A DNA stretch of 64,000 bases from Chaetoceros tenuissimus (taxonomy: Eukaryota > Bacillariophyta > Thalassiosirophyceae > Chaetocerotales > Chaetocerotaceae): contig BLLK01000032.1 in assembly GCA_021927905.1 (NCBI GenBank), positions 1 through 64,000 on the forward strand, written 5' to 3'. Below the pieces are notes generated by a model that did not search any database, had not been told where the DNA came from, and saw only the letters and a program-made list of their open reading frames with translations. Shown one piece after another: positions 3,972 through 58,603 of the stretch; positions within the stretch are counted from its first letter, which is position 1, and every line of letters begins with the position of its first letter. Both the position numbers and the translations under genes were made by a program.

Positions 3972-6900
3972 ATGTCGCATCCATTCAACCAGAATAATGC
4001 AGGAGATAACGAAAATCTGCGAGCAGCAGTCAGCCAACTCCAGCAAGAACGTAACCGCCAGATGAACCAACGAGGAAACATGCTTTCTCCTCAACAGCAA
4101 CAGATGATGGGTCAAGGTCTCCTGAGACCCGGTGCGAATCCCAACGCAAACTTGACCAGTCAGTTGATTAATATGATTCAATCACCTGGTAGTATGGGGC
4201 CAAACTTTAATCCCTATACTAGACCTTCAGGTCCTCAACAGAATAATAGATTCCAGCAATTTCTTCCTCCTTTTGGAGGTCAGCCACATCATGCAGGTCC
4301 TTTCGCGAATCCTTATGGTCAAAATGTAGGTAGTCCTGAAGAACGTGCAGCTAGGGCACAAGCACATGCTCAGGCAGCTCAGTTTCAAAATGGGCCATAT
4401 GGATATGGTAGACAGGGGCAGTCTCAAGGTCTCCCCAATGGCTCTCCAAACTCTCAACAGTTCCCAAACTTTGAAGCCGCCGCCGCGGCTGCTAGAATCC
4501 AATCTCAGATCAATATGATGAAAAATTCTACAGGTCAAGGTGAAACAGCAGCAAGAAACGATACTGAAGGAGACAGTGGGGAGAATGCAAAGAGAGAAGG
4601 CGATAATTTGCAATGGCCACCTCCAAAAGATAATAGCGAATACAGTCTCTCAGAAATTATCAACAGCTTGGCAAATGGTAATCGCTTGTCTCCAGATGCT
4701 AGTAGCGGAAGTCCAAAAGCAGGACCAGTTTCTACAGGACCAGCGCGTGCGAGCCCTAGTCGTGGTAGAGGTAGAGGGCGCGGTAAAGGACGCGGAAAAG
4801 GGAAAACTATCATGTCTCTTACGAAAACTGGTCCAGACGGTACTATCATTCCTATTCATTCTGCTGTACTAGGTGGAGAAGGTGAAGAGAATGCCCCAGT
4901 GTGGTACTCTGGAAGTGTTCCACTAGGTCTCGAAGAAGACCAGTTTTGGCTGTCCGAGTTGCAAGTGTATCTTCGTTCTAATTTTGCTGAAGCATTTGGT
5001 GCAACGGAAGCTGATATTGCTGCCCCTATGCACGGAAGAAACAAACCTATTGCTCTAGGACAGGTTGGTATCCGCTGCATTCATTGCAAAGATCAACCAG
5101 CTGCAGATAGAGGTCAACAGGCTGTATCATATCCAAGTTTAATTTCTGGGATTTACAACTCAGTTCAGCAAATGTTCCGTCTTCATTTTGACTGCTGTAC
5201 TTGTATGCCCAAAGATGTTAAAATGAAAATTGATACACTTCGTACTTCCAGCTCTAGTCGTGGTGGACGAAAACAGTATTGGGTTGATAGTGCAAAGAGA
5301 CTAGGTTTAGTTGACACTCCACATGGGATTCATTTTGGTCGTGACCCAAGTGGTCCTTTGCCTCCGTTAGATACTAGTGCACAATCATTTGGCCCAAGTG
5401 ATGTGGATGACTCCACTACTGCTGCAGAATCGAGTGTTGCAGAATCTCCAGTGAAAGGTGGTTCTGTCAATGCAGGAAGTCTATTGTCTCAAGAGCACTC
5501 TGATGAAATGAAACGACAGAAGGAGGAGGCTTATCCATTGGTTCTGCCAGAAGACAAGAATCTTATTTCTGACTACTTGTACCTGACACTTGAACAGATG
5601 GAACCATGCAAGCTTATGGATGCAGATAGAGTTGGTTGCTACAAAGGAAGATCCATGGGATTCAGGGGACTGGCCTGTAAATGGTGTGTTGGTCAAGCAG
5701 GTTGTGGAAGATATTTTCCAGCATCAGAGGCTTCTTTGTCACAGACTACTACATCTCAAACAATTTTGAATCACGTGAGAAACTGTAGACGCTGTCCTGC
5801 AGAAATTCGAGAAAATCTTGACATTATGAAGAATTCAAAGACTGGTCCAGATGGAAAGAAGTTTGACAAACCAAAACATGGTGGAAGGAAGGTATTTTTC
5901 CATCGTCTCTGGTGCCGAATTCAGGGAGTGCCAATCAATGAGTTTGAACCTGTCGAGGCTAAGATTGGCAGACAAAAGGGGGCGAAAAATAAGAAACCTG
6001 CATTGAAAAGAGCAGGTAAAAAGAGGAAGAAGTCTGATGAGTCTAACGAATCTACTCGTGACGATGATGAAACCGAGTCAGAGGAAGAGGAAGAGAAGTC
6101 CCCAACAAAGAAGAAGAGGGGCAGACCAAAGGCTGTCACATCTGTGAATACTGCAGCTGACTATGACGAATCAGGGGACGAAGAGATGGTAGGTCCAGAA
6201 GATGACGATAACAAGTTGTACCATGCATGCCTTCCTTTGACCAGAGGAGATGATTCGCATTGGCTGTCAGAGCTTTCTTGCTTTGTACGAAAGGATATGG
6301 TCGAATTTTTCAGCGCCAAGAAAGAAGATGTGGAACTTGAAGATGAAGAAATTGTTGAAGGCCAAGTGGGAGTTAGATGTGCTTTTTGTGCAAGGGCAGA
6401 TCCAGATGACAGACCAGATGGATATTCTTATTTCCCAAAATCACTTGCTGATATCTATCAAAAAGTAAGCGATTTGCAAAGACGTCACTTTTTCAAATGT
6501 AGTGAGGTTACAGCAGATGCAAAGAAATCATTGACTTCTTTGGGAGGTTTCGCGTCAAAGGCTGAAGCTGAAACTCATCAGTTTTGGGTTGATTCCGCGA
6601 GGGAACTAGGTATTACAAACTATGACAATCGCGATGGTTTGCGTTTTTATCGAGATCCAACTAAGACCAGCTATGCAGATGACATTACCAAGGAAAGAAC
6701 TAAGGTTCGAAAGAATGCCACTGTCGACAAAAAGGATCTGGTTAGACCAACTGATGTATGTACTGATGAAATGTACCTCCTCTTGAAGCAAGTTAGACCA
6801 TGTCGTTTTAAGAACAGCGACAGAAGGGTTGGACCAGGATCCCGAGGTCGCGATAGAGCGCTTGGATTTCCGGGATTAGCATGTAAGCATTGTCCATCGA

Positions 6901-7361
6901 AAATTACTACTGGGAGATTCTTTCCTATGACATCGAAGAATCTCGACAATACAATCAACGCAATACAAGGACATGTAACTTCCTGTTCGCGTTGCCCTGA
7001 ATCTATCAAGAGTGGACTTGCATACCTTTCACATCGATCGACTCTACAAAAGGCTGATTTGGGTACTGCATGGAAAAAGACTTTCTGCAAAGACGTCTGG
7101 GACCGACTACATGTGGAAAGAGCTTGGTCATCAAATAAGGATGCTACAGCACCAATGGAAAACCAGGAACTTGTAGAACAGGAAAAGCCAAAAGTTGAAG
7201 AAAACTCTGAAGAAGTCGATGAGATGGTTAAGGCTGCAGCTCAATGGCTAACAAAGCGAGACAATCAAGCAGAAAGTGCAAATGGATCAAAACCTAGAGC
7301 ATCAAGGGGAAGGGGATTGCCAAGCAGAAAAAGAAGAGATTCAAACGATGGTGCTCCTTAA
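3972..7361 (+). CDS. Tandem Cys-module protein with AT-hook (1129 aa), diatom-type family
   Basis: No named function is known to me, but the module is one I associate with expanded diatom hypothetical-protein families. The N-terminus (1-200) is Q/N/G/P-rich and disordered, then an RG/KG-rich patch lies near residues 258-275. Two copies of a paired module follow. Part A (about 316-460 and 754-905) starts with WLSEL and holds VGIRCIHC or VGVRCAFC and a later F-W/Y-WVDSA-x-x-LG block. Part B (about 530-655 and 926-1060) holds GLACKWC or GLACKHC, GRYFP/GRFFP and a terminal H-x5-CRRCP/CSRCP. The CxxC pairs suggest zinc binding. Between the two pairs is a lysine-rich acidic linker with the AT-hook core KKKRGRPK near residue 715. 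A chromatin-associated role is inferred from the AT-hook and basic patches. Single exon, clear ATG. Confidence 0.75.
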   Translation: MSHPFNQNNAGDNENLRAAVSQLQQERNRQMNQRGNMLSPQQQQMMGQGLLRPGANPNANLTSQLINMIQSPGSMGPNFNPYTRPSGPQQNNRFQQFLPPFGGQPHHAGPFANPYGQNVGSPEERAARAQAHAQAAQFQNGPYGYGRQGQSQGLPNGSPNSQQFPNFEAAAAAARIQSQINMMKNSTGQGETAARNDTEGDSGENAKREGDNLQWPPPKDNSEYSLSEIINSLANGNRLSPDASSGSPKAGPVSTGPARASPSRGRGRGRGKGRGKGKTIMSLTKTGPDGTIIPIHSAVLGGEGEENAPVWYSGSVPLGLEEDQFWLSELQVYLRSNFAEAFGATEADIAAPMHGRNKPIALGQVGIRCIHCKDQPAADRGQQAVSYPSLISGIYNSVQQMFRLHFDCCTCMPKDVKMKIDTLRTSSSSRGGRKQYWVDSAKRLGLVDTPHGIHFGRDPSGPLPPLDTSAQSFGPSDVDDSTTAAESSVAESPVKGGSVNAGSLLSQEHSDEMKRQKEEAYPLVLPEDKNLISDYLYLTLEQMEPCKLMDADRVGCYKGRSMGFRGLACKWCVGQAGCGRYFPASEASLSQTTTSQTILNHVRNCRRCPAEIRENLDIMKNSKTGPDGKKFDKPKHGGRKVFFHRLWCRIQGVPINEFEPVEAKIGRQKGAKNKKPALKRAGKKRKKSDESNESTRDDDETESEEEEEKSPTKKKRGRPKAVTSVNTAADYDESGDEEMVGPEDDDNKLYHACLPLTRGDDSHWLSELSCFVRKDMVEFFSAKKEDVELEDEEIVEGQVGVRCAFCARADPDDRPDGYSYFPKSLADIYQKVSDLQRRHFFKCSEVTADAKKSLTSLGGFASKAEAETHQFWVDSARELGITNYDNRDGLRFYRDPTKTSYADDITKERTKVRKNATVDKKDLVRPTDVCTDEMYLLLKQVRPCRFKNSDRRVGPGSRGRDRALGFPGLACKHCPSKITTGRFFPMTSKNLDNTINAIQGHVTSCSRCPESIKSGLAYLSHRSTLQKADLGTAWKKTFCKDVWDRLHVERAWSSNKDATAPMENQELVEQEKPKVEENSEEVDEMVKAAAQWLTKRDNQAESANGSKPRASRGRGLPSRKRRDSNDGAP

Positions 7362-7469
7362 ATTAGTAATGTAAATATCGAAGTCAAAATTTTTTAATGA
7401 ATTCTTTTTCTAGCATTATTATCGGTTTATATGATAGGATGAAAGCAGCAGACGATACATGTATAGCTG

Positions 7470-8858
7470 TTACCATTTCAAATGGTTCTTCATCCAAGAT
7501 GCAAACTCTTCATCACCTCCCATCTTTAGCCAAATATCACTTGGAGTATTGTCCCCTATATCAGGTGCACCAACACAGTTACGTTGTAGCGAAGACCAGC
7601 TTTTGCTTTCTTCTGCAATCCATTGAATGAATGATTTATTAAGCTTTTGAGCAGCTTTGTGAACAGATGTATGCCCTTGCTTCTGAGCTGTCCCAAATAT
7701 TTCAAATGTACACGGTGCTATTTTCTTCACATAATCTAATATTTCTCTGATCTTCTGTGAGTCAGTTTGAATAGAAATAGCGATCCAGTGGCCTATACCA
7801 CAATTCCAGTCATTCCGTTTCATAATATCAGCCTTGTGTTCAATTAAACATTGAATTGATTCTAAATTTCCACCATATAGTGCTAAATGCAGTGGTGTGG
7901 TTCCATCTCCAGAAACAGCATCTACGTCCACCACCTGCTTCAATATCAAAAATCGAATTATTTCGGCCTGACCATTCCTACTGGCATAATGAAGAGACGT
8001 TTTTCCATCACGTCTTCTACGTGTAATCTTTTCCTTGTACCCTATTGATTCTGTTACTTTCATCAAAAAATCAAGACACTTCAAATGACCATTCCCAGAA
8101 CTCCAATGTTCTGCTGAGCTTCCATTTCTATCTTTTGTATCTAATAATGCATGGAGTGAATTTTCTTCTCTTGCTTTCTTCACCATCTGCTCTAATATAT
8201 CTAAATTACCATCCGCGGCGGCTTTAATAAAGGATGGAAGAGAATCATTGTATGTTTCGCTTTTTCTCCCATTGCGATCAAGACCTGATCTAACAAATTT
8301 CTCGGACTCTGCACTCTTATTCTGCTCGTATTCCTGTTGAAGTTCAGTGGCAATATCCAGGACTCGTTGTTTCCACTTTGAAATCTCATCCTTTGTTGGC
8401 TCATATTTACCATCACGATTCCATACATCTCCTAAATAATGTTGTTGCAATCTTTGTTGGTATCTATTACGATCTTCAGCTTCTAGTTTCATAGGAACAA
8501 CTCCAAGAATCTCGTCTTGAAAAGTTTCTAAAGCTTCATCACCTTTTTGATTTTCAATCTGTTGAAACACTTTGTAAACACATCCCTGAATTCTTCGTTT
8601 TAATCTTTGCCTTCTTGCCTTTTCAGCCTTTTTTGGATTCCATGGAGTATGTACTTCTTCTAAATGCATCGTGATTCCTCTACCCAATGCATATTTCTTT
8701 TGATTGGCATTGCATAGTGGACAACTTGTCCATCCAGCCTCAGATCCTCTGCCTTGTGTTGCAGTATCACTTATACGTGAGTAGACATCACCAGTTGCCT
8801 TTTTCTGGAGATGCTGCAGCTCATGCTTGAGCTCCGATTCTCTTTCTCTTTTAGGCAT
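7470..8858 (-). CDS. Zinc finger-ankyrin repeat protein (462 aa)
   Basis: The N-terminal third has a C2H2-like finger (CPLC, then HLEEVH, about residues 46-72) followed by a basic helix rich in KKAEKARRQRLKRR. The C-terminal half is a set of ankyrin repeats (about residues 225-400), with the canonical GKTSLHYASRNGQAEIIRFL and GTTPLHLALYGGNLESIQCL cores and more degenerate flanking repeats. Ankyrin repeats mediate protein binding; the finger may bind nucleic acid or protein. The partner and pathway cannot be read from sequence. The gene converges on the tandem-module gene (108 bases between stops) and is divergent from CDC5. The ATG at 8858 is the natural start. Confidence 0.75.
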   Translation of the reverse strand: MPKRERESELKHELQHLQKKATGDVYSRISDTATQGRGSEAGWTSCPLCNANQKKYALGRGITMHLEEVHTPWNPKKAEKARRQRLKRRIQGCVYKVFQQIENQKGDEALETFQDEILGVVPMKLEAEDRNRYQQRLQQHYLGDVWNRDGKYEPTKDEISKWKQRVLDIATELQQEYEQNKSAESEKFVRSGLDRNGRKSETYNDSLPSFIKAAADGNLDILEQMVKKAREENSLHALLDTKDRNGSSAEHWSSGNGHLKCLDFLMKVTESIGYKEKITRRRRDGKTSLHYASRNGQAEIIRFLILKQVVDVDAVSGDGTTPLHLALYGGNLESIQCLIEHKADIMKRNDWNCGIGHWIAISIQTDSQKIREILDYVKKIAPCTFEIFGTAQKQGHTSVHKAAQKLNKSFIQWIAEESKSWSSLQRNCVGAPDIGDNTPSDIWLKMGGDEEFASWMKNHLKW

Positions 8859-23943: not shown

Positions 23944-26900
23944 TTATAATTGACTATTCTTTGGTATGTTGTGTTCTTGACCGAATTTATTGTTCACCTT
24001 CAATGAGAAGTCATGACGCCAATAAATACTTTCAATATGCTTGTTAAATTCGGTAGTACTGATCTGCTTGGTCATAATGTCCGCGAGATTGCACTCCCCT
24101 TTCAACCAATAAGGTTCTATGATCCCTGCGGCTATAGCTTCACGTACAAAGTGGAAAGACAATGCAACGTGCTTCTTGGTAAGATCATGTTGTGGGTTAG
24201 CAGCACTTTGGATGACACTGAAGTTGTCTCCAAATACTTGAGTAGGATGACTTCCATCATTTGGAATGTGAACTCCCAAGCAACGTAAGTAATATCGAAT
24301 ATTAATAGCTTGTTCGGTAGCTTCTTTCAATGCTGCGAACTCTGAGTGGTATGTGCTAGTAGCAACTGCTCCTTGTCGTTTCGTACTCCAATAGACTGGT
24401 GTAGATCCAACGAAGATAATGATTCCGGTTAGAGATCTTCCTGTTAATCTGTCATGTGCATGATCAGCATCAACAAGGATCGTCATTTGTAATGGTGCTC
24501 CAAAGGGAGTAGGCATGTTTGGATCTACCTCCTCTCTTGCGTAAGCATAATCTTCAAGGAAGTCAGGTCGTAATTGTTCGTAATCTGGAGATTCACGAAC
24601 AAATTCGAGTGGACTTGAATCAATTTTAATCTTCTTGCCTTTAGTTTGTTTCAAGTATCCGAAACTTCTAATTGCAATCTCTAAATGTTTCTCACGAGGA
24701 CAAGTCCCAAATCTATTCAGGTTTGCCATGAGTGGTCCTAATTCCGGTCTACCAATGGTATGTAGCCATTGAAGCATTCCGAGTAGGCACTGGAACTGTC
24801 TATGTTCCTTCAGCTTCAAGAAAGGACTCTTATCCTCCTCTAGTCGAGGACATCCGACTGGAAGTGGAGTAGTAACCTTTTTCAGCTCTTTGTTAAACAT
24901 TTCCTCAACTTTGCGGATAGCCTCTTTTTCATAGGTCTCTGCAGAGAAGGTCCATGCATTAAAATCTTCATAGAACTTGTAGTCATTGCCTAAATAATAC
25001 TCAGGTGGACCTTGTTCTTTGATAAAGAAAGCAGTAGCGATTCTGTCGATGTAATCTTCAGGTCGATCTGCAATAACTTTGAAATCGTCTACGTGTGTAC
25101 AAATGTAGTCGTATCCGTTTCCGTTTGGACATGGGCACATCCATACATCACGATCATATCGTGATGGCTTGAATCCCATGCTTCTAATAAAATCAGCAAA
25201 TGCCTTTCGAAATGCAGCTGCACTTGTTGTCAAACCATATAGAGCTTTGACAATAAGTGCAATCATTCCAGAATGTTCTCCAAACTCAGGTCCAAGTTTG
25301 GTGTAAACTTTTTCCTTAGTTTTGCTTTGTACAAATGCATTCCCGATGTCTCCAGAGAGAATCCGTTTCTTCCAATGGTGTGCAATGACATCAAGTAGAC
25401 GGACTGAAATGCCTCTAACGACAGTAGCACGTGTGTTAAGACCTCTAGGATCCACACGGCTGCCATCACATACTAATCTAGCTTTCTTCCTAAGATCTAC
25501 CTTTGCGCAGTATACAAGGTGCATACAAACGTACTGATAATCTTGTGGAGGCTTGTAACCTTTGGGTTTGATGTCAAAGCAGTGAAAGTTAAGGAGTGCC
25601 CCTATCTCTTTCTCTACAGCTTCTTGCCAGTCCCTATTGTTATTCTCTGTATCAATTCGAATGACGTCTTCCCAGTTACGGGGAACTTCAATGCTATATT
25701 CAAACTTCTTGGTGCGGCGTCCTTTGATACTATCTTGGAGCCATGCCTGAGCTTCATCGGATTCTTCATCCTCGAATTTTGCGCGCATAGCCTTTCGCAA
25801 TCTTCTGGAACGAAGTTTCTTGTTTGTAGTATGATGTCGACCAGAATAAAATCTAAATACATTAGATTTGATTGAGCGTCTCCATGCTCTACACAATGCT
25901 CTGTTAAACATCCTAGACCAACGATTAATATTTTGGGCTGCTTCATCATTCCCAATATTAACGTCTTTCCTGGATAAGAATTTTGCTAGTACTGTAGGTT
26001 GATCAGATTGTACTCTCTCGAATGGGTGAATCTCGATTTCACCAGTATCGTAAGTACAATCGAATTCCAAAGTCTTGCCGTTCCATCGTGGATTATCTAT
26101 GCTGATAATCTCCTCTGTCTCTGGCATGTTTGGATCATTCGCGATATTCAGTTGTTCTGCAATGTCATCATACATCTTGTCTGACGATTCCAGTTCAATT
26201 GGATCTTCTTCTACTTCGTCCTCAGGTACATCATTCTCATCTTGAGTGATGTAGCTGGGTCCTGTTTCGTTGTTCCAATTTGTTATAGGTATAACAGTTG
26301 GTCCAGATGGTTGTGCCTCCTCTGAAGGTACAACAGGTGATGCTGGTGCAACTGCTGGTGTAACCGTAGGATTAGCATTGTTATCATTGTCATCCTCTTC
26401 ATCATCGTCATCCTCTTCATCAGAGCTATACTCAGAGTCAGATGATGCGTTCAAGACAAGTGGAGGTGTATCATCGAATGTATCTTCATCCAATTCTCCA
26501 TCATTGTCAGGATCTGCCAATGGAAGTAATGGATTCAGGTTGTCGTGTTGTAGTTGATTGAAGTCAGACTCAGGATCTTCTACTTCAATCATATCCACTT
26601 CACTTGTTGTATAAGTATTGAATAGATCCTCCTCTGAAAGACTATCATCAGGAATTTCCACTCCATTCTCATCTACAAAGGTAAAAGATCCTTCTTCTCT
26701 CCTAACAGTAGGAGCGACATTGGATTTTAAAGAACGTTTACGAACAATGTTTCTGACAATAGTTCTTACGTTTCGTTTTGGTAAGTCGTCGATAGTTTCT
26801 CCTTCCACAATGATGTAGGAAAATCCATCTCCAACGTTGGTAGCAATGCCTAGAAAGAATCCTGGCTTCATTCTATCCACTGGAAAATCTAGTGTAGGAG

Positions 26901-34397: not shown

Positions 34398-37300
34398 ATG
34401 ATATGCCAGTTGTTACTGATGACTGGCCTATTTCTCTTGTCCCGTAGACTGTTTCGGGAACTATTGCTTCGTTCCACTTGTACTCCAACTCATGCAATTA
34501 GAGCGTTCATTACAACTACCATCTCTGCAACTAGATCATCCTTTGATATTGAATCCTTTGTGCATCCTACTTTGACTGCAAATGAACATCAGCGTGGTAC
34601 GAGACTTGGTATCGACTCATGGGCAGATACAAATTGTGCTGGAAAACATGCCTTTGTCGAAGAGTTTGTTGTTGACAAGTTTGTTACTGCTGGTGGATTC
34701 AGCGCTTCACTTGGAACCATCCCAGATTTACCCATTGCAAATGTGCTCTACGCTTATGATACTGATGATAGCAAGACATACATCATCGAATGCAATAACT
34801 CAATATACCTTGGTGATAGGATGGATGACTCTTTGATGAATCCGATACAGGCGGAAGAGTCTGATGTAAGGGTTGATACGAGACCTAAGCGATATTACTC
34901 TGATCCGCATGCACAAACCATAAGTTTTCCCTGTGGTACCGTAATTCCTGTAGAATATGATGGGGCACTGCCGTTCATTCCCATTCGTCGTCCTACTGCT
35001 GATGAAATTCATATCTGTCCAAGACTTGTCATGTCAGCTAAGTTCCCTTGGGATCCTAGTATTCCTGGTGGTAACTTCTCTCAGCCAAGATCTGTATTCT
35101 CTACTTCTACAAGTATCCTTGATTCAGTGCAAGATGATCCAGTTGGATCTTCTCTCATGTCATTGCATCTGCTATCTGCTGTGCAATCAACTTCTGTACT
35201 CCATCCACATGAGGATACCTTTAAGTCATTACAAGCGATGAATTCGTATAAGAGCAAAGAAAGTATCAGTCCTGAGGAGTTGGCACGGTTGCTCAAGATC
35301 GGCTTGAAGACGGCTCAGAGAACTTTACAGGCAACCACTTCGAAATTCATTAGAACTACTGGTGCTCTCTCTCGGCGTTTCAAGACTGACAAGGCTCAGC
35401 TCCGATATAGACAATTGTCTAGAATCTTCGGCAAATTTTATTGTGACTATCTTAAGGTCAATGCTACTTCGATTCGTGGATACAAAGGAGGAGTCATCTA
35501 TACTAATGGACTTGGTTTCTATAAGTTTCTTCCATGTGAAAATGAGACCTCTGAAACTACTGGTAGGACTCTTAGGTACTTCTTGCACGTTATAGGTCTG
35601 CCGTATAGTTTGCACTCTGATAACCATGGTAACTTCAAGGATGGACTCTTCAAGAGATTGATGAGGAAATTCAGAGTTTACCAGACCTTCACTGAGCCAC
35701 ACTCGCCATGGCAGAATAGGGCTGAGCCGGCTATTGGAGAAGTCAAGAAATATGCTAGAAAGATTATGATGAGTACTGATACACCTATTCGCCTTTGGTG
35801 CTTTTGTTATGAGTATACTGCTGACCTCTTATCACTTCTGGCAACCGGACGGTTCGATCTCCAGGGGAGAACGCCGTACGAAATGATTATGCACTACACT
35901 CCGGATATCTCAGAATATGTCTCATTTGGTTGGTTTCAGTGGTGTTACTACTTTGATGAGGACTCCAAAAGCAAGAAGATCTGCCGTTGGTTGGGTCCTG
36001 CTCATGAGGTAGGACAGTCTTTCTGTCACTGGATACTTCTAAGCAACGGAAATTTTATAGCTCGATCATCTGTCATTCCTGTACCGGATCATGAGCTAGA
36101 GTCTGATGAATTAAAGCGCCGTACCAAGATCTTCATGGATTGTATACATGAGAAAATTGGAAATACAAAAGTACCAATTTACAACAATATCTATCCTCAG
36201 CGTGTTTACTATGATGCTTTTGACGACCCTGTCGAGGATGATGAGAGTCAATTACCATATGGCGAAGAACTGCATGAAGCTAAGCTTGAAGATGTCAATG
36301 ATAGATATCTCGAGGCACTTGACAATTACATTAATTCTGAGGTCATCATGCCTGACAAGGATGGTACTGCTGTACTTACCAAAGTGAAAGGTCGTAAGCG
36401 TGATGCTGCAGGTAACCCTGTAGGAGAGGCAAATGAAAATCCTATTCTTGATACCAGAGTCTATGAACTAGAATTTCCAGATGGCAGGATTGAGGAATAT
36501 GCAGTCAATATGATTGCAGAGAACCTATTTGAGCAAGCTGACGAGGACGGCTGGGACAGTGGTATCATTGAGGAATTTCTAGACATTCGCAAGGACGATT
36601 CTGTAGCTGTACCCAAAGAACAAGGCACGTACTTTAACAGTGCTGGAGTTGAGAGGAACGTTGTAACAACCAAAGGATGGGAAGTCCAAGTCAAATGGAG
36701 AGACAAGTCTACAAGCTGGATTTCACTTAAAGACGCAAAGGAAGGTGATCCACTAGGTCTAGCTGAATTAGCTGTAGCTTTGAAAGTACAAGATGAGCCT
36801 GCCTTTAAGTGGTGGACCAATCATGCCTTGAGACAACGAGCCCGACTGATCTCAAGATTGAAATCAAATGTTATTAGAAAAGGCAAGACTAAGTTTGGTA
36901 TACAGGTTCCTGGCACATGGAAGGAAGCTGTCAAGATTGATGAAGCAAATAATAATACGCTTTGGCAGGACGCCATCAATAAAGAAATGGTCAATGCTAA
37001 ATGTGCTTTCAAGTTATTGGCTCGAGGAGATAGACCACCGCCTGGGTACAATGAGATACTGTGCCATTTGGTATTCGATGTCAAACTGGATATGACTCGA
37101 AAAGCAAGATATGTTGCTGGAGGACACTTGACTAATGTTCCCGCAAATATGACCTATTCTAGTGTTGTTTCAAGAGATACAGTTCGAATCGGATTCCTTG
37201 TGGCCGCTCTTAATGATCTTGATATATTAGCTGGTGACATCCAGAATGCTTTTCTTTCTGCTCCTACCGAAGAGAAAATATTCTTCTATGCAGGAGATGA

Positions 37301-38627
37301 ATGGGGTGCTGATAAGGACCGTGTAGTCGTTGTAGTCCGTGCTCTATATGGTCTCAAATCTAGTGCTTTACAATTTCGTAATCATCTTGCTGCAACACTT
37401 GGTAACAAGCTTGGCTTCAAGTCCTGTCTCGCTGATCCTGATCTATGGTACAAAGCATGCATTGATTCCGATGGAAATGAGTATTACTCATACATTCTCG
37501 TATATGTTGATGACCTGTTGATTATTGATAAGAATCCGAAGCGATTTATGGAACAGATCCAAGGTGACTTCACTGTCAAGAAGGAGAGCATTGGTCCTCC
37601 TGACAGATACCTAGGAGCTGACATCAGAAAAGTTGAGGATGATGGTGTCAAGCCATTTTGGACTATGAGTTCTAATTCCTATCTTGATAAGGCCATTAAG
37701 AACCTTAAGGCTAAGCTCAAGGAGAGCGGTTTGGAATACAACAAGAAACTTTCTGATCCGAATTACAGTCCAAAGCAACCATTTACTACTGCATCTTATC
37801 GGCCTGAACTCGATACTTCTGAAGAATGTACTGATGCCAAGTTACTCTATTTCAGAACCTAATCGGGATATTGCGATGGGCAGTAGAACTTGGTAGGATC
37901 GATATTGGATATGAGGTATCAGTTTTGTCTAGATATTTAGTTTCACCAAGGACTGGACATCTCTTACAAGCCATTCATGTATTCAAGTTTCTTGACATTC
38001 ATAAGGACAACGAGTTAGCCTTTAGACCGAATTTACCAAATCTAAGTTTCAATTACGAGGAGATCAATGAACAGACAACGTATATGAAGAAGGCCTATCC
38101 TGACGCTGTTGAAGATTTACCTCCTAATGCACCTGTTCCAAGAGGGAAACCATTGTCCATGTATGTGTTCGTGGATAGTGATCATGCTGGTGATAAGGTA
38201 ACTAGGAGATCCCAGACTGGTATTCTATTATATCTGAATTCTGCTCCAATTATTTGGTATTCTAAGAGGCAAGCGACTGTTGAATCATCTACCTTTGGAT
38301 CCGAATTTGTCGCACTCCGAGTTGCATCTGAATTGATTATTTCTATGAGATATAAGCTTCGTATGATGGGAGTTCCAATTGAGGGTCCGACTCATGTCTT
38401 TTGTGATAATGAGGCTGTTTACAAGAATTCTTCAATTGCTCATTCAACTTTGAAGAAGAAACATAATTCTATTTGTTTTCATCGAGTACGAGAATGTGTT
38501 GCTGCTGGTATTCCAAGTTGTACACAAGGTTGACACTGCTGACAATTTATCTGACATTCTAACGAAATCATTACCTGCTCATATTAGGAAGAATCTACCA
38601 TCCTTAATCATGTATATCAGGAACTAA
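34398..38627 (+). pseudogene. Copia element 2 pol, two frameshifts
   Basis: The first frame (to 37862) holds a protease-like region around DSWADTNCAGKHA (Asp-Thr-Asn where Asp-Thr/Ser-Gly is usual), integrase (FYCDYLKVN, LHSDNHGNF, and PHSPWQNRAEPAIGE with the Glu), and RT with the canonical LVYVDDLLII box and ALYGLKSS. A one-base shift near 37850 moves the frame to 37871-38533, which carries RNase H (FVDSDHAGD, SEFVALRVA, CDNEAVY). A second one-base shift near 38517 leads to a third frame ending at 38627 with ADNLSDILTKSLP, the usual copia C-terminus. Apart from these two indels the whole polyprotein is present. Confidence 0.9.
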
Positions 38628-47754: not shown

Positions 47755-48157
47755 GGTAGAATGAATAAAGATGCAAAAATGCGTCTATTTGCTATAAGAA
47801 AGAGTGTAACAAAATTATGTGCGACGCACGAGCCTTTTTGTTTTTGTGGATCTTCTTTGATCCAAGAAGAAGGTGAAGATTCGATTCTTTGCATTAGAAA
47901 AGTGAAATAGTGATCCTGCTATTTTAGTATCAACCACCAGTACTAAAAGTTCGGCAGGAACGTCTTGTCATATCATACAGTCAGTATACGCATTTTAAGT
48001 ATTTGCGTTAACTTGGGAGGTCGTTCATAATAAAATTTTGTACCCAATTTTCGTTAAATTTATCATGAGTTCTGAGTAATAGCCGCACAAAGTTTCCGTG
48101 TTTGCCATGTTTGACGCTTGTGCCCCCCAAGTTATTTCGTCCATATCATGATCTCCA
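47755..48157. other. Intergenic remainder of duplication copy 2
   Basis: These 403 bases upstream of the Cys-rich copy 2 correspond to 20911-21323. They are more diverged than the coding parts. I see no gene. Confidence 0.5.
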
Positions 48158-48317
48158 TGTAACACTCATTTACTAATATAGCTCCACGATTGATGTCTAT
48201 TGGTGATGCGTCTCATTATTCTCAAGATTCCGAAGAACATATCCAACAACATATCCAAACAACGAACAAATAGCTTTTAATTATAAGATACTATCATCCC
48301 TCTTTTTGTGTGTTACA
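48158..48317 (+). repeat. 5' LTR of L1
   Basis: A 160-base repeat, identical to 53454-53613. It carries GATACTATC near its end, where both LTRs of L2 have GATAGTATC. Confidence 0.9.
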
Positions 48318-48642
48318 TGGCACCGAATCTTAAGAGGAAATACCCACCCACCGATAACCATTACATGAGTCGCAAGATATACGTGCTCCGAGCTGGCAGT
48401 CTGACTTGGTTTATTTTCCTTTGCAGATCAGCAATTGTTGCATTCACTAGTTTTACTCAATTTTATGTTGATTCATGCTCATCATCAATTCATTTCCTTC
48501 CCATAGGTCTATTATTTTTATAATATTCTACTCACACTTTTCCTTTCAAATTCCAGGAATATCTATTTTTGTTTCTTTCATTCCAGTTTCGCCAATAGGT
48601 CTACTTTGAGGCATTGCTGTAGTCTTCTTTCAGTTTCGCCAG

Positions 48643-48985
48643 TGATGAGTTTTCTTAGCTTGCTAAATACGTATGCTAGGTCTACTTTGAGGCAAAACTA
48701 CAACTCTACAGCTCTACTCGCTGATGATGAGTTTTCTTTAGCTTTAAGTCGTCGTGAACGATTTGCTAAGTCTACTTTGAGGCAAAACTACAACTTTACA
48801 CTTTACCCGCTGATGATGAGTTTTCTTTAGCTTTTAGTCGTTGTGAACGCTTGCTAGGTCTACTTTGAAGCAAAGTCCAAACTCCAAACTCCAAACTCCA
48901 AACCCCAAACTCCAAACTTTTACTGCTGATGATGAGTTCCCTTTAGATATGTTCGTTACTGAACGATAGCTAGGGTTGCTTCGAA
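48643..48985 (+). repeat. Hairpin modules of L1, first group
   Basis: At least four copies of a module reading GATGAGTTTTCTTTAGC, hairpin, GCTAGGTCTACTTTGAGGC. Hairpins: 48839-48849 CGTT-GTG-AACG; 48953-48966 TCGTT-ACTG-AACGA. An outer TAGC/GCTA pair brackets most copies. Between copies lie short arrays (ACTCCAA-type near 48880-48920). Confidence 0.75.
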
Positions 48986-50021
48986 GCATTTTTTTTTATT
49001 TAACTAACATTTTTCATTAGCTTTGTTACTCCCCTCTCCCGCTCAAATAGATACAAGGGTTCACTCCCGGGATGCACTTCTTGTCTCTACCTTTGCCTTC
49101 ATTTCGACGGCCTTTCAATACCTACAATTCTCTTTTCAGAAGATTACAAATTTCGACTACGCATTCAAGTCTCCGCCTTCGTGTCTTTTGAAACTATCTG
49201 CTTTACAATAGCTTTCAATACACTCAACCGTAATTTCTACATTTGCATCTTTTCCACGACTAAGTTTTTCGTGATGGCTATTTGGTACAGTATTGCAATT
49301 TTATTCAATTTCCAATTTATTTTGCTCAGGATCATTTTGTTGAAACAGATTTTGCTACAGTCGCCTAATACAAGTCTCTACATTCATAGTTTGCATCAAA
49401 GTCAGGCTATATTTCGATACACACTTGCCTCAAACCTCGGTGAATACTATTGCGACCAGCTCATTTTACGTTTGGAACAATTGCTACGGTCTACAGTTCA
49501 CGAGTATGTCTACCCTCACAAGCCCACTCTACCTTCGGAACGCTCTACTTCTACTTCATTCATCTCCCTCTCCATCTCGACACTTCATTCACCGCTATTT
49601 CTCATTCTGGAACAATCTCTATAGTCTCTATCCCCAAGTTTCTTCTTTTTACACTTTGCTTCATAGTCTGGGTCTTGTTTGGACCACACTTGCTTCTCCT
49701 TCATTTTATTCATCTGGACAGCAGGTCTACAAGGTATAGTATTGCATCTATTTTTACGACTCACATCTTATTTTATCTTGTTACTCCCTTCTTTTTCAGG
49801 AATCTTAGACAGACGTATAGACAAGTTCGTATCAGCCCATGCAATCGACAGTACCTAGTATTGACTTTCGTATTATGCATGAATCAAGATCTTTCTTCGG
49901 ACCTCCGAGTTACTTCTAGAGCTCTTTTGCCGTATTTAATTGCTACACTATCAAGACATACGCTACTAGACATCACCCATCTACTCCTTCTATTTGAGGC
50001 AACTTTTATCTCCAAAAGCAA

Positions 50022-50515
50022 ACTGCTGAGGACAAGTTTTCTTTAGCTTATCGTATTTTACGTTCGCTAGGATTACTTCGAGGCAACAACTTTTATCTCC
50101 AAATCTCCAATCGCCAACTGCTGAGGACGAGTTTCTTTAGCTTATCGTATTTTACGTTTGCTAGGATTACTTCGAGGCAACAACTTTTATCTCCAAATCT
50201 CCAAATCTCCAACTGCTGAGGACGAGTTTCTTTAGCTTATCGTATTTTACGTTTGCTAGGATTACTTCGAGGCAACAACTTTTATCTCCAAATCTCCAAA
50301 TCTCCAAATCTCCAAATCTCCAAATCTCCAAATCTCCAAATCTCCAACTGCTGAGGACGAGTTTCTTTAGCTTATCGTATTTTACGTTTGCTAGGATTAC
50401 TTCGAGGCAACAACTTTTATCTCCAAATCTCCAAATCTCCAACTGCTGAGGATGAGTTTTCTTTAGCTTGTCGTTGTGAACGCTTGCTAGGTTTACTTTG
50501 AAGCAAAGTTTATTT
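50022..50515 (+). repeat. Hairpin modules of L1, second group, with CTCCAAAT array
   Basis: Five closely similar modules start CTGCTGAGGA-CGAG (or ATGAG) and carry the variant hairpin CGTA-TTT-TACG (e.g. 50052-50062), except the last, which has CGTT-GTG-AACG. They are separated by arrays of the 8-mer CTCCAAAT of varying length, longest at 50285-50346. Confidence 0.8.
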
Positions 50516-53453
50516 TACTAACACTACCTTTTCTTTGTTACTCTTTTGTTTTGGTAGCTCAAACAGGCTTCTTTACTTTGGAGCATCTACTTTTGTCTAC
50601 AGGCACCGACTTTTCACTTTCCATCATTCAAGATTCACTTCTAGAATGCACTTTTTGTCTCTACCTTTGCATTAATCTCGACAACCAGTCAATAGCTACA
50701 ATCTTCTTTTCGGAGGATCACAAATTTCGAAAACGACACAATCAGAACAAGAGCTGGCATTCCTATTCTTCCTTGCTGCTGCAAATACTCCGTTTTTCGC
50801 CTCTTATCTCCTTACATGCTTTACATTTGGAACGCACTAGCTTCACCTTCATCGTCTCCACCACAGGCTAAGAGCTACCTCTCACTTCGGAACAGTCACT
50901 ACGGTCTTCATTCCCAAGTCTCCTCTTTTACACCTTTCGTCATGGTTTGGGTCTCGTTTGGACTGCCCTTGCTTCCCTTCCATATCACTCATCTTCGAAA
51001 CAGGCCTAAAGGATACAGTCTGTAGATTCAAATCTCAATCTTCATATCCCACATCATACGTCACGCTTAATACGCAAGATTCTCTTCGCAGCTACTTGGT
51101 ATAGTAGTGCAATTATTATTCAACTTACAATTTACTTTGCTATAACCCTCTTTTCCAATAGATGAAACAAGTCTGTATTACTTTTGAGTTTATCCTTGGA
51201 TACCAACAAGTATATGCATCTACTTTCTTTATCCTTGCCTCCATCTTCGCAACATTTATGCTTTACAAATAGGAACTAGCAGTCTTGAGCAATCGACAGA
51301 GTTCAGGTGTGCCATTCGTACTATGCATCATTCATGATATCTCTTTTGATACAATCCATAGTTTCAAATCTCTGCCTTCATATCTCGCGTCATATGGCAC
51401 GCTTCAAACGCAATTTTTTTTCCGTAGTTACTTGGTATAGTATTTCGATTATATTCAACTTACAATTCACTTTGCTATATAACCCTCTTCTCCAATAGAT
51501 GAAACGAGTCTGTACTACTTCTGAGCTTGTCCTTGGATACCAATTTCCATACTTTGCGTCATGCATGGTTCTCACCTACAACGCATCTGCTGTCTTTATC
51601 CTTGCCTTCATCTTCGCGACGTTTCTACCTCCTCTTTTGCATCCTTCGTTATAGTCGAGCAACTGCTACTGTCCTCTATTGGTATTACTACTCTACTCGC
51701 TGCAAGGACTTCGCTACACCCTTCCAGTTCCGCATATCCCATCATACATGCTTTGCAAATTGGAACGCATTCGTTTTCTTCTTCATCGTCTCTACCTCGG
51801 CAATATACTCTCTTTCACGAAGACTACAAACTTCAACTAGGCAGAGACTTGAATGCCTTCATATCCTTCGTCACTAGCTGATTACATTTTCTCTATTATT
51901 GCTTTCAATCCATCACAGTGTACCGAGGTTCCTACCTTTGCACTTGAGTCATGATTAGATTTGCTTCACTTGCATCTCTTCCTCGCAACCACACGAAACA
52001 TATTCAAGCATCTGTCTCCATAGCTTCCTTGATGTCACGTTTAAAACGTATTCTGATTCGCAATCATTTTTGGCTATTTGATGACACACATTTGTACTAC
52101 CTTCGAGCAACTATTATTGTCCGTGGACTTTTTTTTACTTTGTGCCAGGCATGGTTTACGCCTCGAACGTAATTCCTGTCTCTATCTTCGCCTCAACCTT
52201 TATTTCGTTGTTTGCGCGAAAGTACCAAATTTAGCATCACTCATACTCTCCATACAGGATGTATTTGTTCTACTCGTCATTATTTCTGCAAAAGGTTCAC
52301 GGGTACAGTATTACAGCTTCATTCATGCATCTCACATTCTTTTCTATGCATCCTCTTTTTCAGACAGATCTTCAGCATTTATTCGAGCAACTGTTCTTAT
52401 GAATGAGATTCCTTCGCATCGAGGGCAGCCTTATCCTTCCCTCAGTGTAACCGTACTTCGCTCTGGTTACGTATCTCATCATCATCCGCCAGTCGCCATG
52501 AGTCGGGCCAACCATTCTCCACTTGTAGCAATACCATTGCCTACTAGTACTGTCATGTTGCAACCCACTCACCTTCCTTACATGCATCCTTGCTACATTT
52601 TAACAAACAAGTTTACATCCTCTCGGACCACATGCTATTGTTTCCATCAAGTATTTTCTCTCCTTCTTTGCTCGTATTTTACATTCGCTAGGATTACTTT
52701 GAGGCAACAACTTTGATCTCCAATCTCCAATCTCCAATCACCAACTGCTGAGGACGAGTCTTCTTTAGCTTATCGTATTTTACATTCGCTAGGATTACTT
52801 CGAAGCAACAACTTTGATCTCCAATCTCCAATCTCCAAATCTCCAATCACCAACTGCTGAGGACGAGTCTTTTTTAGCTTATCGTATTTTACGTCGGCTA
52901 GAATTACTTCGAGGCAAAGTATTGCATTTAGTTTTAAAACTCACATCTTATTTCCTTTGTTACCCTCTTCTTCGTCAGGAAGCTTGGACCAAGTTTGGAC
53001 CAGACATGGTATCTCTTCGGAACGCTCAGTTTCTTCGATCTTGAACTCCATCTTGTTCCTTCATCGACGAAAATTTCGACCTCAAATACAACCCACTCTT
53101 ATTTATATTGGCATTGTTTAGCTACCTTCTGAGAACGACCGTAGTTTCTTCTTACTCTATGGACATATTCCCAGACTTTTAAGTTGACAGAAACACGCCC
53201 TATTTAGGCCATTCGACATCTCAAGCACATTGGTACAGTACCTCAATTGACATTTCTATTTTTCCCGATCATATTCTACCTTTTCATCGCACAACCACCA
53301 TCTCTTTTCTCTCCCTCTCTATAGGCTACCGGAAATCTTCTCATATTTTTTTCTCAAATTGGAATAAAACATGAACCCATCTCTGAATGAATTTCCCATA
53401 ACAAATTTCGAAAGTTTTCCAATGAGTTTTTTATACATGAGAAGAAGAACCGA

Positions 53454-53613
53454 TGTAACACTCATTTACTAATATAGCTCCACGATTGATGTCTATTGGT
53501 GATGCGTCTCATTATTCTCAAGATTCCGAAGAACATATCCAACAACATATCCAAACAACGAACAAATAGCTTTTAATTATAAGATACTATCATCCCTCTT
53601 TTTGTGTGTTACA
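53454..53613 (+). repeat. 3' LTR of L1
   Basis: A 160-base repeat identical to the 5' LTR. The 540 bases before it are nearly the same in L2 (57252-57787). Confidence 0.9.
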
Positions 53614-53640
53614 TCCATACCATTACTTTTACTTATTATG
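53614..53640. repeat. Segmental duplication copy 2, right fragment
   Basis: These 27 bases match 21311-21337 of copy 1. They include the stop codon (53629-53631) and last three codons of the Myb-RING gene, so the duplication border cuts inside that gene. Confidence 0.85.
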
Positions 53641-54668
53641 TAACATTCGGAGTATTTCGGCAAATGCTTCATCTCTTCTATACGAACGATGTGATGTAAC
53701 TCGACTCTTGCATACCATGCACTCTTTCTTGCGCCCCACTTCTTCCTCAATGCAAGTACCACAGTATCTATGACAGCAATCTTGAACAATGAAAGGGTCA
53801 TCAAGATAATTCAAACATTTCAGACAACAAGTTGCATCTGTAACATCATGAATTCTCCGCGGCAAGATCTTGATGGATTCAAGCGGTTTCATGCCTTCAG
53901 CATTATTCGAAATTCTTTCGTTTTGAAGCTCTGTGTTCCCTTGATTCAAAGTACAGTCTTTCATCAAAAGTAACAAGTCTCGAAAAGGTTCATCCTTCCG
54001 CAGAGATCGACGTGATCTTACTACACCCCTGCATAAAGGGCACTCTTTTCTATGTCCCAAGGATTCCTCAATACGAAATTTGCAGAACCTATGACAGCAC
54101 TCTGGAATGATGTGTGGGTCATCAAATATTTCAAAGCAGATGGGGCAATGAGTTTCATCAATGTCATCAGGAGCAGAACGTTTCTTGTCGTTGATGACCT
54201 CTTCCTTCTCTGTGATTTCATTAACTTCTTCACTTTGTAATAATTTTGCCTCATTAACCCTCTTTCCATGATTACCTGATGCTCTTTTTGCAAAATACTT
54301 AGACGCATGATTATTAACTTGAATGCGCGTTCTAGTCCGGACATGTGAGGAAATCTTCTTCCATGCTCCTTTACCATATTTCTCCAAGCCTTCTTCGAAA
54401 AGACGATGCTCCTCATCTGTCCACTTCCCCGTGTTCGTGTTTTCTGCTTGTGCGAAATATTTCTCAGCATGATATCTGACTTGTTTATTTGTTCTTGAAT
54501 GTACATGTGAAGCAATTTTCTTCCATTCTCCTTTACCATATTTCTCCAAGCCTTCTTCGAAAAGACGATGCTCTTCATCTGTCCACTTCCCCGTGTTCGT
54601 GTTTTCTATTTGTGCGAAATATTTCTCAGCATGAGTTAAAACTTGAATGCGTGTTCTAGTTCGAACAT
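53629..54668 (-). pseudogene. SHAQKYF-Myb / double RING gene, C-terminal part (after L2)
   Basis: From the ACAT target duplication the frame encodes the end of one SHAQKYF-type Myb repeat, then two full repeats (GKWTDEEHRLFEEGLEKYG ... NHASKYF and similar), a linker and two RING-type zinc fingers. RING 1 (CPICFEIFDDP ... ECPLC) has Arg where one zinc-ligand Cys is expected (CCHRFCKFR), while RING 2 (CCLKCLNYLDDP ... CCHRYCGTC ... CMVC) is complete. SHAQKYF Myb repeats bind DNA; RING fingers usually recruit E2 enzymes for ubiquitylation. The part continues in frame from 57948-58603 if L2 is ignored. Standing alone it has no proper start. Confidence 0.85.
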
Positions 54669-54828
54669 TGTAACACTCATTTACTAATATAGCTCCACGA
54701 TTGATGTCTATTGGTGATGCGTCTCATTATTCTCAAGATTCCGAAGAACATATCCAACAACATATCCAAACAACGAACAAATAGCTTTTAATTATAAGAT
54801 AGTATCATCCCTCTTTTTGTGTGTTACA
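54669..54828 (+). repeat. 5' LTR of L2
   Basis: A 160-base repeat identical to 57788-57947. Confidence 0.9.
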
Positions 54829-55103
54829 TGGCACCAAATGTTCATCAAACCCAACCACCGATATGTTATATGAGTCGCGAGATATATGTGCTCCGAGCTA
54901 ACAGTCTGAATGATGGTTTTATTTTACTTTGCAGAACAGCGATTGATGTACTCACTAGTTTTACTCAATTTTGTGTTGAGGAGTGTCAAGATTCATGCTC
55001 ATAATCGCGTCTTCATCTCCCTCTGATAGTTTTTATTATTTTATAGTATTACACTCACTCCTTTCCTTTATAATTACAGGAATGTTTTTCTTTCTTTCCA
55101 GTT

Positions 55104-55632
55104 TCGTCAATGATGAGTTTTCCTTCGTTCGTTATGAACACTTGCTAGGTCTACTTTGAGTCATTGCTGTAATCTTCTTTCACTCTCGTCCATGATGAGT
55201 TTTCCTTCGCTTCTTATATGAACATGCTAGGTCTACTTTGAGGCAAAACTACAACTCTACAACTCTACTTGCTGATGATGAGTTTTCTTTAGCTTTAAGT
55301 CGTTGTGAACGCTTGCTAGGTTTACTTTGAGGCAAACTTTTGTTTACACTCTAACCCGCTGAGGATGAGTTTTCTTAGTTTGTCGTTGTGAACGTTTGCT
55401 AGGTCTACTTGGAGGCAAAACTTTTATCTACAATCTACAATCTACAATCTACAATCTACAACCTACAATCTACAATCTACAATCTACTAGCTAATGATGA
55501 GTCTTCTTAGCTTGCTATAAATGCTCGCTAGGACTACTTTGAGGCATCTACAATCTACAATCGCTGATGATGAGTTTTCTTTAGCTATATTCGTTACTTA
55601 ACGTTGGCTAGGATTACTTTGAAGCAACTCTT
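55104..55632 (+). repeat. Hairpin modules of L2, first group
   Basis: Six modules. Hairpins include CGTT-GTG-AACG at 55301-55311 and CGTT-ACTT-AACG at 55592-55603. A run of the 7-mer CTACAAT fills about 55428-55487. Confidence 0.75.
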
Positions 55633-56765
55633 TTATTTTACTAACATTTTGATTTTCTATGTGGGGTCTGACACTTCACAGTAATGGACACAGTTTCGTA
55701 CTTTGCGCCATTCAAGATTCAGTCCTAGGATGCAATTCTTGTGTCTACCTTTGCCTTCACTTCTGCGATATCTCAATAGCTACAGTCTTTTGGAAGAATA
55801 AAGATCTCGCCTACGCATTCAAGTCATTGCCTTCATATCTCGCGTCATACGTCACGCTTCACACGCATGATTTTCTTCGCTGTTACTCGGTATAGTATTT
55901 CAATTATATTCAACTTACAATTTACTTTGCTCTATAACCCTCTTTTCCAATAGATGACAACAAGTTTGTATTACTTCTGAGCTTGTCCATGTTTATCAGC
56001 TTCTATATATCGCAAGGATTAGATCATTGTCGAGCAGCTGCTACTGTCCCCTATTGGCACTACTACTCTACTCGCTGCAAATACTTTGCTACACCCTTCC
56101 AGTTCCGCATAATCGGAACGCATCCGCTTTCTTCTTCCTTGTCTCTACCTCGGCAATATACTTTCATTCACGAGAACTACAAATTTCAACTACGAATTCA
56201 AGTCTCCCCATTCATATCCTTCGTCACTAGCTGTTTACATTTGCTTTACAATTACTTTCAATCCATCACAGGGTACTGAGGACCCTACCTTTGCAGTTTT
56301 GGCCATGATCAGGTTTTGCTTCACCTACATTCTTTCTCGCAATCATTCGAAATATATTCGAGTTTCTGTCGCCATATATTTCATTGACGTCACGTTTAAA
56401 ACGCATTTTCATTCGCAATCATTTTTGGCTATTCAGTATAGTTTACAATTGCTTTTGACTCACAATCTAATCGCTCTCTAAAACTCTCTTCTGATAGATG
56501 ACACACATTTGTACCTGCCTTGGAGCAACTATTATTGTCTTTGGATAAGTCTCTACCTTCATAGTTTGCATCAAAGTCAGTCTACATCTCGATACGCATT
56601 TGCTTCAGACCTCAGTAAATAATATTGCGACCAGCTCATTTTACGTTTGGAACAATTGCTACGGTCTACAGTTCACGATCACAGCTATTCTCTCATTTTG
56701 GACACGCTACTGGACATCACCAATCTACTCCTTCTAGTTGAGGCTACTTTTCTCTCCATCGCCAA

Positions 56766-57252
56766 CTGCTGAGGACGAGTTTCTTTAGCTTATCGTATTT
56801 TACGTTTGCTAGGATTACTTCGAGGCAACAACTTTTATCTCCAAATCTCCAAATCTCCAAATCTCCAACTGCTGAGGACGAGTTTCTTTAGCTTATCGTA
56901 TTTTACGTTTGCTAGGATTACTTCGAGGCAACAACTTTTATCTCCAAATCTCCAAATCTCCAAATCTCCAAATCTCCAAATCTCCAAATCTCCAACTGCT
57001 GAGGACGAGTTTCTTTAGCTTATCGTATTTTACGTTTGCTAGGATTACTTCGAGGCAACAACTTTTATCTCCAAATCTCCAACTGCTGAGGACGAGTTTC
57101 TTTAGCTTATCGTATTTTACGTTTGCTAGGATTACTTCGAGGCAACAACTTTGATCTCCAATCTCCAATCTCCAAATCTCCAATCACCAACTGCTGAGGA
57201 CGAGTCTTTTTTAGCTTATTGTATTTTACGTTGGCTAGAATTACTTCGAGGC
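56766..57252 (+). repeat. Hairpin modules of L2, second group, with CTCCAAAT arrays
   Basis: Five modules carry the CGTA-TTT-TACG hairpin; the last (57220-57230) reads TGTA-TTT-TACG, turning one C-G pair into a T-G wobble. CTCCAAAT arrays separate them, longest near 56941-56995. Confidence 0.78.
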
Positions 57253-57787
57253 AAAGTATTGCATTTAGTTTTAAAACTCACATCTTATTTCCTTTGTTAC
57301 CCTCTTCTTCGTCAGGAAGCTTGGACCAAGTTTGGACCAGACATGGTATCTCTTCGGAACGCTCAGTTTCTTCGATCTTGAACTCCATCTTGTTCCTTCA
57401 TCAACGAAAATTTCGACCTCAAATAAAATCCACTCTTATTTATATTGGCATTGTTTAGCTACCTTCTGAGAACGACCGTGGTTTCTTCTTACTCTATGGA
57501 CATATTCCCAGACTTTTAAGTTGACAGAAACACGCCCTATTTAGGCCATTCGACATCTCAAGCACATTGGTACAGTACCTCAATTGACATTTCTATTTTT
57601 CCCGATCATATTCTACCTTTTCATCGCACAACCACCATCTCCTTTCTCTCCCTCTATAGGCTACCGGAAATCTTCTCATATTTTTTCTCAAATTGGAATA
57701 AAACATGAACCCATCTCTGAATGAATTTCCCATAACAAATTTCGAAAGTTTTCCAATGAGTTTTTTATACATGAGAAGAAGAACCGA

Positions 57788-57947
57788 TGTAACACTCATT
57801 TACTAATATAGCTCCACGATTGATGTCTATTGGTGATGCGTCTCATTATTCTCAAGATTCCGAAGAACATATCCAACAACATATCCAAACAACGAACAAA
57901 TAGCTTTTAATTATAAGATAGTATCATCCCTCTTTTTGTGTGTTACA
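57788..57947 (+). repeat. 3' LTR of L2
   Basis: A 160-base repeat, identical to the 5' LTR of L2. Confidence 0.9.
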
Positions 57948-58603
57948 ACATGTGAAGCAATCTTCTTCCAATTTTTATCATATATTTGCAAACCTTCTAC
58001 GAAAAGACGATGCTCTTCATCTGTCCACTTCCCTTTGTTCGTGTTTTCTGCTTGTGCGATATATTTCTCAGCATGATTATTAACTTGAATGCGCGTTCTA
58101 GTTCGAACATGTGAAGCAATCTTCTTCCATTCTCCTTTACCATATTTCTCCAAGCCTTCTTCGAAAAGACGATGCTCCTCATCTGTCCACTTCCCTTTGT
58201 TCAGCATGTCAGAATCTATATTGGATGGTGTAAGCAACTTAGACTCATAGTTCTCCAGTTCAGTTCCAGTTTTTCCAACATCTTCTTTATTTGTTTCTTT
58301 ACTTTGACTTGCCTCTTCCGTGTTTCCGTTGTTCTCTTTAAAATTGTTACTTAACTTTTTATCACACACACACATATGATAATACCAGTCATTTTTTTGG
58401 CAATCTGTGCTACAATACCATGCATTGTAACAACCAGAGCAATGCCATAGTTTGCCAGTCGTATCAGTTTTGTTGCAAAATTTATTATTACAGCACTTGT
58501 CATCTGATTTCGTAGTGAGCATCATTTTTTCCGGTGAAAAATCCTTCCAAAATTGTGGGTGAAACCAAACACTACCGTTTATATCGTGACAGAATCCATA
58601 CAT
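57948..58603 (-). pseudogene. HSF C-half / MYND / SHAQKYF-Myb part of the broken gene
   Basis: The frame opens with MYGFCHDINGSVWFHPQFW, the second half of an HSF-type DNA-binding domain (family: LN-x-YGF ... YYHE-x-F), then a MYND zinc finger (CCNNKFC ... CSGCYNAWYCSTDCQ ... H-x-C) and one full SHAQKYF Myb repeat, and is cut inside the next repeat (after IASHV) by L2. It then reads into the LTR and stops at 57911. MYND fingers bind proline-rich partners. It is in the same frame as both neighbouring parts. An ATG follows the upstream stop at once, so re-initiation is possible but would give half an HSF domain. Confidence 0.85.

Follow-up and report, generated by a model that had tools for sequence, protein, structure and literature searches.

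The original LARDs of cereals have LTRs of several kilobases, and retrozymes have Ty3/Gypsy helpers. Non-coding LTR elements are divided by size, with LARDs above and TRIMs under 4 kb (PMC5963040, PMC9033089). The Dasheng/RIRE2 system of rice pairs a non-autonomous element with a Ty3/Gypsy partner through LTR similarity (PMC9033089), and the autonomous and non-autonomous Gypsy partners RLG_Wilma, Sabrina and WHAM of wheat have only a few essential motifs in common (PMC9744471). Retrozymes, too, are non-autonomous, non-coding LTR elements (PMC4918200).

Here we describe L1 and L2, which are young copies of one new family of non-autonomous, non-coding LTR retrotransposons. They lie in a window (the whole stretch of DNA analysed, 64,000 nucleotides with 40% G+C) from the diatom Chaetoceros tenuissimus. 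As in LARDs, an LTR pair with intact ends and a target duplication accompanies a primer binding site and a polypurine tract, gag and pol are absent, and the machinery would be that of a related autonomous element. By size, L1 (5456 bp) is a LARD, as are six other copies above 4 kb, and L2 (3279 bp) is a TRIM, with L012 and L013 also under the limit, although all belong to one family. The preliminary description of this locus had called both elements LARDs, a label that fits L1 but not L2, which at 3.3 kb falls short of 4 kb. Unlike the cereal LARDs, the family has very short LTRs (160 bp), includes copies of 3.3-3.7 kb, and has mosaic interiors full of a repeat of about 60 nt. Short LTRs and the lack of coding capacity recall TRIMs, but lengths of 3-8 kb are far above what is typical of that class. 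The pairing with a Ty3/Gypsy partner through LTR similarity resembles Dasheng/RIRE2, although the host group is different and a captured gag-region fragment here ties in the partner as well. As among the wheat elements, few essential motifs are common to the autonomous and non-autonomous Gypsy partners, but the LTRs still have 84-85% identity and traces of recombination with the partner can be seen. Retrozymes are similar in being non-autonomous and non-coding, whereas L1 and L2 carry no hammerhead or other Rfam ribozyme; a search of positions 48100-58000 at E <= 5 found no ribozyme or other known RNA.

Structure and insertion sites of L1 and L2

L1 and L2 are complete LTR elements with exact target duplications and neither gag nor pol (Table 1). 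The preliminary description had reported perfect 160-base TG...CA LTR pairs, exact TCCA and ACAT duplications and a TGGCACC primer site, and all of these were borne out, with TGGCACC directly 3' of each 5' LTR. The one base by which the two elements had been said to differ, each pair having its own version, is LTR position 134, where L1 has C and L2 has G. The reported AGAAGAAGAA purine tract is also present, but it is set off from the 3' LTR by CCGA. This spacer (53450-53453 and 57784-57787) occurs in all non-autonomous copies and in two coding relatives, L017 and L018, and hence the end of the plus-strand primer may not coincide with the LTR edge.

Table 1. Positions of features of L1, L2 and the interrupted host gene in the window.
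Feature	Position	Strand	Remarks
L1 whole element	48158-53613	+	5456 bp, interior 5136 bp
L1 left target-site duplication	48154..48157	.	TCCA
L1 5' LTR	48158..48317	+	160 bp, TG...CA, inverted ends TGTAACAC/GTGTTACA
L1 primer binding site	48318..48328	+	TGGCACCGAAT; 11-nt complementarity to tRNA-Lys(CUU) 3' end including CCA
L1 5' array, ~60-nt repeat unit	48643..48988	+	
L1 middle array, ~60-nt repeat unit	50025..50506	+	with ATCTCCAA spacers
L1 3' array, ~60-nt repeat unit	52665..52917	+	
L1 purine tract	53440..53449	+	AGAAGAAGAA, then conserved CCGA
L1 3' LTR	53454..53613	+	same sequence as L1 5' LTR
L1 right target-site duplication	53614..53617	.	TCCA
Host Myb/RING gene, 3' part	53629..54668	-	split by L2
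L2 whole element	54669-57947	+	3279 bp, interior 2959 bp
L2 left target-site duplication	54665..54668	.	ACAT
L2 5' LTR	54669..54828	+	160 bp
L2 primer binding site	54829..54841	+	TGGCACCAAATGT; 12/13 nt complementary to tRNA-Lys(CUU)
L2 5' array, ~60-nt repeat unit	55110..55627	+	
L2 3' array, ~60-nt repeat unit	56768..57254	+	
L2 purine tract	57774..57783	+	AGAAGAAGAA, then CCGA
L2 3' LTR	57788..57947	+	same sequence as L2 5' LTR
L2 right target-site duplication	57948..57951	.	ACAT
Host gene, 5' part	57952..58603	-	MYND finger + Myb repeats

The L1 primer site TGGCACCGAAT is complementary to the 3' end of tRNA-Lys(CUU), CCA included. A pattern search of the genome found six genes for this tRNA, which were confirmed by ARAGORN. 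Complementarity extends over 13 nt in most non-autonomous copies and 11 nt in L1, L010 and the autonomous partner; the site in L2 has one mismatch.

When L2 and one ACAT are cut out in silico, the resulting empty site contains an uninterrupted 563-aa frame that starts with Met and encodes a MYND finger, Myb repeats and RING fingers. L2 is thus a precise, recent insertion within a coding exon of a host Myb/MYND/RING gene. L1 adjoins the same gene just beyond its 3' end. In strain NIES-3715 of this species, MYND and RING genes are abundant, and Gypsy/DIRS is put at 1.1% (PMC8613185).

A family of non-coding elements

We searched 41,027,912 bases in 68 contigs; the NIES-3715 genome is described as 41.0 Mb with 38.9% G+C in 85 scaffolds (PMC8613185). 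Each LTR search scored the best 40 candidate places, so that all genome counts are lower bounds. The search for the 160-base LTR that the preliminary description had suggested found at least ten two-LTR non-autonomous copies (L1, L2 and L009-L016) of 3.3-8.1 kb, with non-coding, modular interiors common to the family. Exact 4-bp duplications flank eight of the ten, and L014 matches at three of four bases. The tenth copy, L012, belongs to a palindromic insertion, of which it is one arm and which is flanked as a whole by CAAG. A genome-wide check of whether the direct repeats belong to a tandem array showed that they do not, as LTR pairs occur elsewhere, most with an exact 4-bp duplication of their own.

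The palindrome (L034/L012, contig C39:168050-174974) consists of two head-to-head copies. Its arms match at 99.7% identity along 3.2 kb, and both outer edges carry a U5 end. It looks like an integrated inverted-dimer cDNA, and the presence of CAAG on both flanks argues against an assembly fold-back artefact. On contig C62:311-8834, L015 is inserted into another copy of the same family, as judged from the ~60-nt units and interior blocks that run on both sides. L014, the largest non-autonomous copy, has a 1.2-kb segment (element positions 6594-7829) that is absent from every other copy read. A more diverged relative on contig C32 is seen as a 3' LTR alone.

The LTR pairs of the non-autonomous copies have 0-2 differences per copy. 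Summed over nine copies, leaving out the palindromic one, the pairs differ at 4 positions (0.28%). If another diatom's rate of 4.77e-10 mutations per site per generation (PMC6604790) is applied, this corresponds to a mean age of about 3 million generations. Taken singly, L1 or L2 (0 differences in 160 positions) can only be said to be no older than about 20 million generations.

A likely Ty3/Gypsy partner

In a genome search for reverse transcriptase domains, RVT_1 matches were found flanked by LTRs with 84-85% identity to the L1 LTRs. The preliminary description had proposed to look for an autonomous element that has the ends and primer site of L1 and L2, and this search found a likely one. 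Its copies L017 and L018 are about 9.2 kb each and have 172-bp LTRs with 0 differences, and all three partner-type copies checked have exact 4-bp duplications. The third, L019, is an ordinary internal-deletion derivative. The pol ORF runs without stops for 1893 aa and 1891 aa in L017 and L018, with domains RVT_1, RT_RNaseH_2 and Integrase_H2C2. By eye, we also recognised a protease DTG, the reverse transcriptase IIDD, and the integrase HHCC and D,D,E motifs. The order protease-reverse transcriptase-RNase H-integrase, in one frame between LTRs, is that of Ty3/Gypsy elements. An ORF in the gag position (695 aa in L017) had no Pfam match. This element is likely the autonomous partner of L1 and L2.

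The partner and L1/L2 have no more in common than three parts: the LTR, the primer site together with about 40 nt of leader, and the 3' tract. The LTR is almost invariant over its first ~40 and last ~45 nt, and GAACCGA precedes the 3' LTR in both. Our best estimate is that these three parts would be what the machinery recognises. The preliminary description had instead pointed to the 3' 540 bases, said to be nearly constant. That holds only between L1 and L2 (98% identity); other copies are 84-90% identical to them, L014 and L015 lack part of the block, and the partner lacks it altogether. It has no special degree of conservation across the family.

A Copia helper was considered and rejected, as RVT_2 matches in the genome sit in other elements and none lies between the LTRs of the copies read. 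One such match is in the flank part of L020, outside any non-autonomous copy. The window itself contains two Copia-type RVT_2 reverse transcriptases, at 24904-25548 (-) in an open frame of 1057 aa and at 37071-37703 (+) in one of 1154 aa.

Mosaic interiors and capture of a gag region

The closest relative of each element changes along its length. For L1 the nearest copy is L010 across most of the first 1.8 kb and L2 across the last 0.85 kb; for L2 it is L013 across most of the first 2 kb and L1 across the last 1.1 kb. The constancy of the 3' end between L1 and L2 is therefore explained by a recombinant 3' half that both carry.

Exchange has also involved the partner. L015 carries 536 bp of the partner gag ORF, 94% identical to L017, which lies 1629 bases from the 5' end in L015 versus 1636 in L017. 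Non-autonomous sequence resumes in L015 at a CTACAACT repeat found in both elements, which duplicates about 0.7 kb. Template switching between co-packaged RNAs would leave such a trace, and among the sequence comparisons this capture argues most strongly that both RNAs meet in one particle. DNA-level recombination or gene conversion could in principle produce both the capture and the mosaics instead.

It is also conceivable, though improbable, that a different helper with the same 160-bp LTR, either unassembled or recently lost, mobilises or mobilised L1 and L2. The LTR of the 9.2-kb element differs from theirs by 15-16% and is 12 bp longer, our genome searches for reverse transcriptases and LTRs found no RT-encoding element with the 160-bp LTR, and the assembly is in 68 contigs, with several copies on short ones. 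Against such a helper, two copies of the named partner retain intact pol frames and LTRs without differences, the primer site, LTR ends and duplication length are the same, and L015 contains the gag fragment at 94% identity.

Coding capacity of the interiors

The interiors of 2.96 and 5.1 kb had been described as free of gag and pol, and each search agrees. No Pfam domain stands alone in those interior ORFs that were checked, domain searches found no reverse transcriptase or integrase family match inside these interiors, and tblastn with the partner pol detected no trace of it in L1, L2 or any of the ten two-LTR copies. Low Pfam E-values obtained for some interior ORFs were rejected as sums of weak tandem-repeat scores, as no stretch passes alone in the members that were examined singly. 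A host origin of the interior was likewise rejected, as a 2-kb piece of L1 matches only family copies or relics in the assembly. The sense strand of both interiors (48318-53453 and 54829-57787) is pyrimidine-rich, with about 60% C+T.

This skew is the same as that of the coding partner, as might be expected if L1 and L2 were dead coding elements whose gag-pol has eroded past recognition. However, such decay is very unlikely given LTR pairs with few or no differences, the lack of a pol trace in ten two-LTR copies, and non-coding blocks common to copies at up to 98-100% identity; the LTR identity and these blocks indicate that the copies multiplied as non-coding elements. That the interior encodes a hidden protein, spliced or novel, making the element really coding, is hardly credible: plus-strand ORFs of 80-220 aa are numerous, but pyrimidine richness makes stop codons scarcer in each of the three plus frames and so mimics coding ORFs with the one-strand excess seen, and the domain scores have the explanation given above.

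A sense-oriented repeat of about 60 nt

Each non-autonomous copy contains 11-29 units of the ~60-nt repeat in two or more arrays, always in sense orientation. The ten copies and short flanks hold 143 sense-strand units, versus none in L017-L019. An exact core pattern of the unit has 126 matches in the genome versus 0 for the reversed pattern, and the 100 places listed among these 126 are all in loci of this family.

For the unit, RNAalifold proposes a K-turn-like fold with four helices. In a tree-based covariation test of the unit, no pair reached significance, and E was far above 1 for the pairs that make up the fold; the folding energy beats that of shuffled sequences only slightly (mean z -0.74 sense, -0.11 antisense). 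With no support from covariation and the gain in stability weak, we do not claim a structured RNA. It is a tentative and rather unlikely idea that the unit is a functional RNA motif, such as a packaging or dimerisation signal present in multiple copies, or a template-switching platform; if so, it would let a gene-less element compete for the particles of its helper.

Discussion

The preliminary description took L1 and L2 for recently mobile LTR elements that lack coding capacity, and our findings support this, with movement in trans the most likely route. Very probably, they belong to a non-autonomous family that is moved in trans by the ~9.2-kb Ty3/Gypsy relative represented by L017 and L018. 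Under this model, the transcribed L1/L2 RNA would carry only cis-signals, namely the LTR ends, the tRNA-Lys(CUU) primer site with its short leader, and the plus-strand primer tract. Proteins of the Ty3/Gypsy element would package, reverse-transcribe and integrate this RNA in trans. Within the particles, reverse transcriptase may switch between co-packaged RNAs and thereby generate mosaic interiors, and one such switch may have carried the piece of the partner gag region into L015.

The family is new but the kind of element is already known, and the general picture of LARD and TRIM elements is unchanged. For the host, the recent insertion of L2 disrupts a putative regulatory gene. In this small algal genome, a gene-less element and its likely helper form what appears to be a young pair, with a direct trace of recombination between them. 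The signals common to the pair come down to the LTR, a leader of about 40 nt and the 3' tract, and hence the minimal cis-requirements for parasitising a Ty3/Gypsy element become testable.
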